Below, in pieces: positions 8,910 to 56,189 of a stretch of 64,000 nucleotides of DNA. The stretch comes from Thiotrichaceae bacterium. GTDB taxonomy: Bacteria; Pseudomonadota; Gammaproteobacteria; Beggiatoales; Beggiatoaceae. A program made the position numbers and the translations under genes. Where the stretch lies: NCBI GenBank assembly GCA_028688145.1, contig JAQTYU010000002.1, positions 434,001 to 498,000 on the forward strand, read 5' to 3'. The stretch's first letter is position 1. Each line of letters opens with the position of its first letter. Under the pieces are notes generated by a model. The model did not search any database. It was given only the letters and a program-made list of their open reading frames with translations, and was not told where the DNA came from.

Positions 8910-10388
8910 ATGCGTCGCGCCAAAGAAATCGAACTCGCCATTGCTCCCAAACCTGCCGATGCTTCTTTGCAACAATGGTTATATGGGGAATTACGTGCCG
9001 CCATTTTGAGCGGGCGACTAAAACCCACAGTACGCTTGCCCACTAGCCGAGATTTTGCGCGTCAACAAGGCATTTCACGCGGCACAGTGCTCGCAGTGTA
9101 TGCACAATTGACCGCAGAAGGCTATTTACAAGGAAAAGTCGGCAGTGGCACACGGGTTTCTGCCTGTTTGCCCAATTTGGAAAATGTAGCGTTAAATTCA
9201 CCAAACCCCAGTATTGCAGCGCACCGAGGCAAACTTTCCGAGCGTGGGCAGATTTTGGCAAATTCGCCCTTTCCGAAAAAAGAATTTTTAGAAGCCGTGC
9301 GCCCGTTTTGTCCCAATCAACCTGATTTGAATGCGTTTCCGCTACGAATATGGAATAAAATTGCATCGCAACGCAGCCATTTCACCAAACCCGCGTTAAT
9401 GTTGCATGGCGATTCTCAAGGCTATTTTCCGCTGCGGCGTGCGATTGCGGAACATTTACGCTATTCACAACGCATTCATTGCCATGCCGAACAAGTGATG
9501 ATTTTAGGCAGTGCTCAACAAGCTTTGGATTTATGCGCCCGTTTGTTGCTGAATCCTGACGATCAGGTGTGGTTAGAAGAGCCTGGTTATCCCGGTGCGA
9601 AACAGGTTTTTGAAATGGCAGGCGGGCAAATTATCCCTGTTGCGGTGGATGAATACGGCATGAATATTACCGCAGGCATTGCCGCCGCCCCGCACGCCCG
9701 TTTAGCCTATGTCACCGCCGCGCATCAATCACCGCTGGGCATGTCTTTGAGCTTAGAACGCCGTCTTGCCTTGTTGCAATGGGCTGAGGCGCAAAATGCC
9801 ATGATTATTGAAGATGATTATGACAGCGAGTTTCGCTATCTCGGCACGCCCTTGGCGGCACTGAAAAGCTTGGATGACAAAGGGCGGGTAATTTACATGG
9901 GTACATTTAGCAAATTACTCTTTCCCGCGTTGCGTTTGGCGTATGTAGTTGTTCCTGAATGGCTTACCGATGCGTTTGCCTCTGCAATTTCTTTAACTTG
10001 TCGGCATATTTCTTTACAAACGCAACTCATTTTACGCAGCTTCATTGAAGAAGGGCATTTCGCACGCCATCTTAGACACATGCGTCTGCTTTATGGCGAA
10101 CGGGCGGCGGTGTTTCAACAAGTCTGTGTTGAACATTTGGGCGAATGGCTTTCAATATTGCCGATTACCACAGGGCTGGATGCCACAGCATTGTTAGCAA
10201 GCCCTTTTCAAAATGATGTTGAGGTAGCAAACCGTTTAATTAAAGCAGGCATCGAAGCGCGTCCGCTGTCGTTTTACCGCATAGGAACTGCCCCAGCTTG
10301 TGGATTGGTATTGGGTTTTTCAGCTTTTGATGCCCCTCAATTACAACAAGGGGTTCACAAAATGCGGGCGGTTTTTGAAGAAAAATGA
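8910..10388 (+). CDS. MocR/PdxR-type regulator (GntR HTH plus aminotransferase domain)
   Basis: A 492-residue fusion of an N-terminal GntR winged helix (about 15-80, with LPTSRDFARQQGISRGTV) and a class I aminotransferase-like domain. PLP-site motifs: IIEDDYDSEFRY (the cofactor aspartate) near residue 303 and GTFSKLLFPALRLAYVV, whose Lys would form the Schiff base. MocR proteins sense PLP or amino-acid adducts and usually control the divergent neighbour, here the AhpD-like gene at 8336. PdxR-like control of B6 metabolism is possible but no pdx gene is in the window. Confidence 0.92.
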   Translation: MRRAKEIELAIAPKPADASLQQWLYGELRAAILSGRLKPTVRLPTSRDFARQQGISRGTVLAVYAQLTAEGYLQGKVGSGTRVSACLPNLENVALNSPNPSIAAHRGKLSERGQILANSPFPKKEFLEAVRPFCPNQPDLNAFPLRIWNKIASQRSHFTKPALMLHGDSQGYFPLRRAIAEHLRYSQRIHCHAEQVMILGSAQQALDLCARLLLNPDDQVWLEEPGYPGAKQVFEMAGGQIIPVAVDEYGMNITAGIAAAPHARLAYVTAAHQSPLGMSLSLERRLALLQWAEAQNAMIIEDDYDSEFRYLGTPLAALKSLDDKGRVIYMGTFSKLLFPALRLAYVVVPEWLTDAFASAISLTCRHISLQTQLILRSFIEEGHFARHLRHMRLLYGERAAVFQQVCVEHLGEWLSILPITTGLDATALLASPFQNDVEVANRLIKAGIEARPLSFYRIGTAPACGLVLGFSAFDAPQLQQGVHKMRAVFEEK

Positions 10389-10393
10389 TCTGC

Positions 10394-10569
10394 CGCACGA
10401 ACGCTATTTTTAGTAGTGCTAAACAGGATATGAGCCTTTCACCCCCTTTGAAAAAGGGGGCAGGGGGGATTTAAAAATCTCGAAAGTTCCCACGATCTTA
10501 AATCCCCCTCAGTCCCCCTTTTTCAAAGGGGGAAGCTACACCCCACGTTTCGCACGAACGCTATTTTTA
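10394..10569. repeat. Palindromic element (family D) bracketed by 19-bp direct repeats
   Basis: CGCACGAACGCTATTTTTA occurs exactly at 10394-10412 and 10551-10569. Between them, C-rich arms 10442-10475 and 10498-10532 form an inverted repeat built on CCCCCTTTGAAAAAGGGGG and GGGGGGATTTAA. Related arms occur at 51720-51810 and a partial one near 53165-53185. The direct copies could be a long target duplication or part of the element. No coding potential. Confidence 0.85.
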
Positions 10570-10588
10570 AATTCATCCGAGGTTATTT

Positions 10589-11278
10589 ATGAAAACTGCC
10601 TGCATTAAATCTTTTGAATTAGGGAATATGGATAATTTCGTGCATTTAATTTATGACACTGCCAGCAAACGGGCGGCGGTAGTCGATCCTGCATGGGATG
10701 TTTCAGATATTATCAACTTTGTGAAAGCACAGGGTTTGACGCTGACGGATATTTTATTGACGCACAGCCATTACGACCATATCAATGGCTTATCGATGAT
10801 TCGTGATGCCTATCCCGAAGCAAAAATTCATTTGTCCACAGCAGAAGCTTCCTTTTGGGGAAATGCGCCAAAAACTGCGATTTTGCATCAGGATAACGAT
10901 GTAATTCAGTTAGGGGAAACTGCGATTAAAGTATTATTCACGCCAGGACATACGCCAGGTTCGGTTTGTTATTATTTTGATGACAAGGTAGTCACTGGGG
11001 ACAGCTTGTTTATTTATGGTTGCGGTCGCTGTGATTTGCCCGGCGGCGATGCGGCAGAATTATTTCACAGCTTAAAAGATTTGGTAGCGCGGGTGTCGCC
11101 AGACACTTTGGTATACAGCGGGCATGATTACGGCGTGGAAAAAGTCACCACTTTAGCGGCACAGGTGGCAGGCAATCCCTTTTTACACTGTGCCACCAGT
11201 GCGGCATTTGTGCACTATCGCATGATAGAACACGATCAAACTCGTCGCTCACCGTTTACGCCCGTATTACGCGCTTAA
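10589..11278 (+). CDS. Metallo-beta-lactamase-fold hydrolase (glyoxalase II-like)
   Basis: A 229-residue zinc hydrolase. Metal ligands THSHYDHINGL (HxHxDH) near residue 57, TPGHTPGS near 126, GDSLFIYGCGRCD near 143 and YSGHDYG near 180 follow the hydroxyacylglutathione hydrolase / persulfide dioxygenase layout. The bridging Asp and third His are present, so it should be active. In a sulfur oxidiser a persulfide dioxygenase role is attractive, but the GRCDLPGGD loop is shared by both subgroups and does not decide it. GAGG precedes the ATG by 8 bases. Monocistronic. Confidence 0.85.
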   Translation: MKTACIKSFELGNMDNFVHLIYDTASKRAAVVDPAWDVSDIINFVKAQGLTLTDILLTHSHYDHINGLSMIRDAYPEAKIHLSTAEASFWGNAPKTAILHQDNDVIQLGETAIKVLFTPGHTPGSVCYYFDDKVVTGDSLFIYGCGRCDLPGGDAAELFHSLKDLVARVSPDTLVYSGHDYGVEKVTTLAAQVAGNPFLHCATSAAFVHYRMIEHDQTRRSPFTPVLRA

Positions 11279-11303
11279 ACAGTGCATTAGTGACAGCATA
11301 AAA

Positions 11304-11336
11304 AAACCTTCCACGTTTGCAAAAACGGGAAGGTTT
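11304..11336. terminator. Bidirectional hairpin terminator
   Basis: AAACCTTCC (11304-11312) pairs with GGAAGGTTT (11328-11336), with further CGTTT/AAACG pairing inside. A-run on the left and T-run on the right suit both strands; it separates the convergent hydrolase and HvfA-like genes. Confidence 0.85.
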
Positions 11337-11365
11337 CGCCAAATTAATAGCTTAAGGTAAGCGGT

Positions 11366-11767
11366 TTATTCAGGCTTGGTTTCTGCTGGCTTGGCTTCTT
11401 CTTTAGGGGTGTCAGCAGACTTCTTGTCAGCACCACATTTAGCTTCGCCACACTTGCCTTCTTTGGATTTGTCAGCTCCGCACTTGGCTTCTTTAGATTT
11501 TTCAGCACCACACTTGGCTTCACCGCATTTCCCTTCCGTGGATTTTTTCGCGCCACATTTGGCTTCTTTGGCTTTGTCGATGGCGGGGGCTGCGGGCGTG
11601 GTGGTCTTGTCAGTTGCAGGCGCAGTCGTCGTATTTTCAGCAACTTGCATATAACCTTGCGCTAAATCGGTTTGTTGGAACACATTGGCTTCTGCGGCTT
11701 GTGTACCACCAATCGCTACGCCCATGGCTAACATCAATAACTTAGGTTGTTTTTTAAATTGGTTCAT
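11366..11767 (-). CDS. HvfA-like secreted Cys-repeat protein; candidate RiPP metallophore precursor
   Basis: A 133-residue low-complexity protein: signal peptide (residues 1-24, MNQFKKQPKLLMLAMGVAIG then TQAAEA), a conserved TDLAQGYMQVA leader element near 33-43, an Ala/Thr spacer, then six KCG motifs with Cys at 71, 81, 86, 96, 106 and 111. Four read EAKCG and two EGKCG. The Cys pattern is two tandem copies of a 25-residue unit (68-92 and 93-117). DLAQGYM plus EGKCG repeats are the marks of HvfA/bufferin-type precursors whose Cys are modified by DUF692 (MNIO) enzymes with an HvfC partner to bind copper. Neither partner, nor DoxX, is next to it here. Family call good; modification inferred. 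Confidence 0.78.
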   Translation of the reverse strand: MNQFKKQPKLLMLAMGVAIGGTQAAEANVFQQTDLAQGYMQVAENTTTAPATDKTTTPAAPAIDKAKEAKCGAKKSTEGKCGEAKCGAEKSKEAKCGADKSKEGKCGEAKCGADKKSADTPKEEAKPAETKPE

Positions 11768-11809
11768 GAGTAGGATTCCTGATTGTTGGGTGAAAGTTAA
11801 AAACTCAAG

Positions 11810-29888: not shown

Positions 29889-30014
29889 AAATATTAAATA
29901 CAGGGGGTATTCGTAGGTGATGATTTCAATTCCCCCGCATTCCGCTGCGCTTCATACAGGCTACTTTTGATATTTAATATTTGTCTTTAGCCCCCTTTAG
30001 AGAGTTGGGGGCTT
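29889..30014. repeat. Repeat cluster: AT arms, half of family F, half of family E
   Basis: AAATATTAAATA (29889-29900) and its exact reverse complement (29971-29982) flank CCCCCGCATTCCGCTGCGCTT...AGGCTAC (29932-29964), one arm of family F (complete copy at 63005-63092). It is followed by TTTAGCCCCCTTTAGAGAG and TTGGGGGCT (29985-30014), the right half of family E. The last codons of the methyltransferase gene lie in the E half. Confidence 0.7.
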
Positions 30015-51694: not shown

Positions 51695-51853
51695 CTGCGC
51701 CCCTAAATTCCTTTAACTTCCCCCTTTGGAAAAGGGGGATTGAGGGGGATTTAAGATAGTGGCAATAATCGATATTTTTAAATCCCCCCTGCCCCCTTTT
51801 CCAAAGGGGGGGGTGATTATTATCTTTAGCCCATTTTAGGGGGTTGGGGGCTT
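51695..51853. repeat. Nested inverted repeat (family E outside, family D inside)
   Basis: Outer: CTGCGCCCCTAAATTCC (51695-51711) and TTTAGCCC...GGGGGTTGGGGGC (51824-51851). Inner: CCCCCTTTGGAAAAGGGGG with GGGGGATTTAA (51720-51753) against TTTAAATCCCCCC and CCCCCTTTTCCAAAGGGGG (51777-51810). Lies between hemC and the glycosyltransferase, non-coding. Confidence 0.85.
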
Positions 51854-56105: not shown

Positions 56106-56189
56106 ACTGCGCCCCTAAATCCCCTAAAGGGGACTTAAAACCACTTTAATATTTGTGTTTAGCCCCCTTTAGGGGGTTGGGGGCGCAGT
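56106..56189. repeat. Inverted repeat, family E
   Basis: ACTGCGCCCC (56106-56115) and GGGGCGCAGT (56180-56189) bound an 84-base palindrome with CCCCTAAAGGGG and CCCCCTTTAGGGGG hairpins. Almost the same as 53760-53841. It separates convergent hisG and the binding-protein gene. Confidence 0.9.

Follow-up and report, generated by a model that had tools for sequence, protein, structure and literature searches.

The precursor gene and its product

In a 64,000-nt stretch from the genome of a Thiotrichaceae bacterium (NCBI GenBank assembly GCA_028688145.1, contig JAQTYU010000002.1, positions 434,001 to 498,000; hereafter the window), we analyzed hvfA, a gene for a small secreted protein of the HvfA/oxazolin family that lies far from the genes for HvfB and HvfC, the enzyme pair that would mature it. 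A first-pass annotation of the window had reported the open reading frame without a strand, along with a DLAQGYM motif, six KCG motifs, the cysteine positions, and four EAKCG sites. All of these are present in the sequence, with DLAQGYM at residues 34-40, and the frame is on the minus strand (Table 1).

The protein matched the NCBIfam HvfA family model NF050137 at E = 5.9e-15, above the curated cut-off (Table 1), in line with its earlier description as an HvfA-type precursor. Its N-terminus, MNQFKKQPKLLMLAMGVAIGGTQAAEA, is Sec-signal-like by eye and leads into the F..L..GYM stretch found in the family. In an alignment of 21 precursors (the present one and 20 from other genomes), F30, G38, and Y39 were invariant, and the consensus read NPFGMT.LS.GYM, with NVFQQ in place of NPFGM in our precursor. 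Judged by its sequence, the protein is a member of the HvfA/oxazolin family (Buf_EGKCG, the Lys-Cys group of captophorins), and we do not claim it as an HvfA equivalog. Pfam held no family for it, and PF10048 (DUF2282, bufferin 1) had no match in the precursor or anywhere in the genome. Nor did the genome (3.6 Mb) contain a second KCG precursor of this family, as both NF050137 and a DNA pattern matched hvfA only.

The 50-residue core keeps a strict five-residue register (EAKCG AKKST EGKCG EAKCG AEKSK, then EAKCG ADKSK EGKCG EAKCG ADKKS), which explains why the six cysteines, one per KCG, are spaced by 10, 5, 10, 10, and 5 residues. Four of the six sites are EAKCG and two are EGKCG. Between the two 25-residue units, silent codon differences (11) outnumber those that change the amino acid (5), pointing to a duplication that is old and has been constrained at the protein level. 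The first-pass annotation had also suggested that the EAKCG sites might alter site choice. We reject this idea, because the natural FonA substrate EAKCG-EGKCG is modified at both cysteines; this minimal substrate shows an 8 Da loss, and position-2 variants are tolerated, Pro excepted (PMC13097082). EAKCG sites also occur in hvfB-adjacent precursors (G035, G047, and Hydrogenophilales). In the same fontiphorin work, two repeats sufficed where one did not (PMC13097082), so that the isolated first sites of the two units, Cys 71 and Cys 96, may or may not be modified like the EGKCG-EAKCG pairs. An AlphaFold2 model built from 21 sequences contained no secondary structure (predicted local distance difference test 51.5, predicted template modeling score 0.14) and was uninformative on a beta-helix.

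With a ribosome-binding-like site ahead of it and a separate terminator-like hairpin, followed by seven U, behind it, hvfA looks like a single-gene unit. A consensus terminator scanner did not pick up the hairpin 3' of hvfA, probably owing to a bulge, and a promoter scan scored no better than shuffles. The flanking genes encode a metallo-beta-lactamase-fold hydrolase and a glycosyltransferase. Their relatives lie at mutually differing places in other genomes of the same bacterial family, and comparing flanking genes across these genomes revealed no conserved genomic site for hvfA.

Table 1. Features of hvfA and its surroundings, in window positions
Feature	Position	Strand	Basis
hvfA-type precursor gene, stand-alone, 133 residues	11366..11767	minus	Open reading frame; NF050137 54.6 bits, cut-off 19.5; sole such gene in genome
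Sec-type signal peptide, residues 1-27, probably the leader that HvfC recognizes	11687..11767	minus	Sequence; precise cleavage position estimated by eye
Conserved post-signal motif NVFQQTDLAQGYMQVAE, residues 28-44	11636..11686	minus	Alignment of 21 precursors
Core unit 1, residues 68-92, Cys 71/81/86	11492..11566	minus	Sequence
Core unit 2, residues 93-117, Cys 96/106/111	11417..11491	minus	80% amino-acid and 71% nucleotide identity to unit 1
Ribosome-binding-like AGGA upstream of ATG	11768..11782	minus	Sequence, by eye
Intrinsic terminator-like hairpin, then seven U, downstream of hvfA	11299..11337	minus	Minimum free energy -18.4 kcal/mol, z -4.5

The maturation enzymes and their distribution

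No maturase gene adjoins hvfA, and in that sense the first-pass label of "orphan" stands for the gene neighborhood. It fails for the pathway, which is split rather than missing. The genome, which is 99.9% complete, contains a single DUF692/MNIO gene (PF05114), hvfB (C6:81042-81830, E 4.6e-104), and a single DUF2063 gene (PF09836), hvfC (C6:80738-80998, E 9.5e-24), which adjoin with overlapping stop and start on contig C6. The genome search proposed by the first-pass annotation, which had named the lack of any DUF692 gene as fatal to its idea, thus returned one DUF692 gene, one HvfC-like gene, and no further KCG precursor; the maturases that it had imagined elsewhere, possibly acting in trans, exist as one adjacent pair on another contig. 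HvfC consists of DUF2063 and NGO1945_C domains and matches PDB 3DEE. The HvfB active-site motifs ENxxYY, DVNN, HIAGH, DTHG, and ERDFN align with PDB 3BWW, a DUF692 structure. By sequence identity, HvfB is of the oxazolin type (54-72% with HvfBs of this type, 33-41% with MNIOs of other kinds).

On its 562-kb contig, the precursor gene sits at 445.4 kb; hvfBC occupies ~80.3-81.9 kb of another contig, 175 kb long, which puts at least ~197 kb between them. Neither locus is near a contig end, so the split cannot be put down to a contig edge. The adjacency of precursor and hvfBC that is typical of the family, though not required in it (PMC12452194), is absent here. No precursor-like gene was found next to hvfBC: upstream of hvfB is a gap of 156 bp that contains an inverted repeat, followed by a gene for a 159-residue acidic protein without family or KCG. 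Beside the latter, two genes upstream of hvfB, is an EAD/TIR-domain-like gene (by eye; L007:10685-11458).

We compared 58 related genomes, including the present one (G000). HvfA was found in 16 of the 58, and every one of these 16 also carried an MNIO (Fisher p 7e-8, uncorrected for shared ancestry). Within the bacterial family, HvfA and oxazolin-type HvfB coincided in nine of nine genomes and in none of the 28 others (p 8e-9, likewise uncorrected). Two genomes outside it, G041 and G042, had an oxazolin-type MNIO without an NF050137 match. Precursor and MNIO were neighbors in 13 of the 16 HvfA genomes and on different contigs in three, so that the split recurs in two of the 15 others, G005 and G038. 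Like the present genome, these two have precursor and hvfBC on different contigs, but the neighboring genes differ.

Some relatives showed further unusual arrangements. In G005, the genuine hvfA (11 EGKCG) is on another contig than hvfB, and the precursor position 30 bp upstream of hvfB is held by a Cys-less secreted repeat protein with an HvfA-like signal peptide (DPKGMSEAAPEEAEE; L067:6864-7151), which may be a precursor with a lost core or a different partner. In G038, hvfA lies among sigma/anti-sigma-like, DoxX-like, and MsrPQ-like genes (by eye; L068:7034-10574), with hvfBC on another contig. One Methylococcales genome carries two tandem precursor genes with KEGACG/EMKCG-type cores (L086:9623-9976 and 10001-10630) upstream of hvfBC.

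Proposed maturation in trans and origin of the split

We consider it probable (about 0.85) that hvfA encodes a stand-alone HvfA/oxazolin-family (captophorin) precursor that is matured in trans by the genome's sole HvfBC and then serves as a periplasmic copper-binding peptide. HvfC, the DUF2063/RRE partner, would recognize the precursor in the cytoplasm through the signal peptide and the F..t.L..GYM stretch next to it. In Haemophilus HvfA, the signal peptide works as a leader, because modification falls from about five Cys to <1 when it is removed (PMC13419390). HvfB would turn the KCG cysteines into 5-thiooxazoles, and the modified precursor would then be exported by Sec, cleaved, and able to bind copper in the periplasm. 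With hvfA outside any hvfA-hvfB-hvfC operon, maturation would depend on hvfBC, a unit of two genes at another place on the chromosome.

Several points weigh against this proposal. Modification of the precursor, its chemistry, its export, and its copper role are inferred. The precursor scored 28.8 bits against NF050188, the full-length HvfA equivalog model, below the cut-off of 95; it is among the 14 of 21 aligned precursors that match this model at E <= 0.001. The genome had no match to DoxX (PF07681), a difference from the hvfABC + hvfX system of Haemophilus, and a by-eye comparison, the only one made, revealed no promoter motif common to hvfA and hvfBC. HvfB could also serve another, unrecognized substrate. 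As a rival reading, hvfA might be a decaying orphan that is still expressed but no longer modified, its cysteines being ordinary thiols or without role. The absence of an adjoining maturase and the diverged leader would fit such decay, but we find it improbable given that the reading frame, all six KCG motifs, the five-residue register, and the leader motif are intact, that the duplicated units differ mostly silently, and that the genome retains an intact cognate HvfBC. A chance resemblance of some Lys/Ala/Glu-rich low-complexity protein to HvfA might be suspected from the simple composition of the precursor and from a 92-residue open reading frame on the strand opposite its core. This explanation is refuted by the strength of the NF050137 match, the conservation of the leader outside the repeat, and the restriction of the DNA pattern to hvfA.

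How precursor and enzymes came apart is a separate matter. The gene order in G002, a member of the same bacterial family, is hvfA-hvfB-hvfC-NUDIX, and the present genome retains hvfB-hvfC-NUDIX without hvfA (NUDIX 62% identical). The place of hvfA is taken by an inverted repeat with 30-nt arms (CAAGCCCCCAACCCCCTAAAGGGGG; L007:9905-9994), directly upstream of hvfB and between it and its upstream gene. We infer that the clustered hvfABC order is ancestral, because it is the common arrangement and because G000, G002, and G005 group together, with weak support, in the HvfB tree (87/70). As a subcase of maturation in trans that concerns origin and not function, the ancestral hvfA upstream of hvfB may have been lost, possibly through a rearrangement involving a dispersed inverted repeat, and the unlinked gene now present acquired separately from a Methylococcales-like source. 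The leader (signal peptide and GYM) shares 56-60% identity with Methylococcales precursors, against 30-50% with every other precursor compared, and it groups with Methylococcales in a leader tree (85/72, weak). For HvfB, contrary to the leader, identity is higher with G002 (72%) than with the Methylococcales counterparts (61-62%), and the window contains three related copies of the inverted repeat (29992-30014, 51831-51853, and 56164-56186) against 0 expected. However, the leader comparison spans only ~45 aligned residues, the Methylococcales set was retrieved with the present precursor as query and is thus biased to similarity, Methylococcales cores differ (EMKCG, KEGACG), and the repeat at hvfB may be just a common intergenic element. 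We thus hold this origin to be conceivable but doubtful. Somewhat more speculative is a precursor exchange in this lineage: hvfBC would have stayed at its ancestral site by the NUDIX gene, the native hvfA would have disappeared, and its role would have passed to an unlinked precursor with a foreign, Methylococcales-like leader and a KCG core in pentad register. Either way, hvfA may have been relocated or replaced.

Known systems and implications

The HvfA/oxazolin system of nontypeable Haemophilus influenzae (hvfABC + hvfX; PMC13419390) shares with the present one a Sec signal peptide, six KCG motifs, and HvfB (MNIO) and HvfC (DUF2063/RRE) in the genome. Haemophilus HvfA, by contrast, has three AEGKCGEGKCG motifs and is in an operon with its maturases, whereas our precursor has two 25-residue units of mixed EAKCG/EGKCG and is unlinked to hvfBC. 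The fontiphorin FonA/FonBC of Fontimonas thermophila (PMC13097082) likewise has a natural EAKCG-EGKCG core, with both cysteines of the FonA test substrate converted to 5-thiooxazole, but its genes are clustered and its sites number seven. Antoine and co-workers described about 2,000 Buf_EGKCG/oxazolin proteins, the family to which our precursor belongs, and found that some stand-alone precursor genes are single-gene units; for Buf1 and Buf2, a sizeable share of precursors is not linked to MNIO genes (PMC12452194). Set against that family, our precursor is distinguished by 25-residue units with three KCG each.

Both the family and its stand-alone precursors were thus already known, and the present gene adds a member. 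The enzyme that serves stand-alone MNIO precursors is usually left open in the literature. Because this nearly complete genome contains a single precursor and a single HvfBC pair, their pairing in trans is nearly unambiguous and can be put to a direct test. If the precursor was indeed exchanged, HvfBC would accept leaders of other lineages in nature. The hvfBC-NUDIX block, kept without hvfA, also offers an example of the way such clusters break up.
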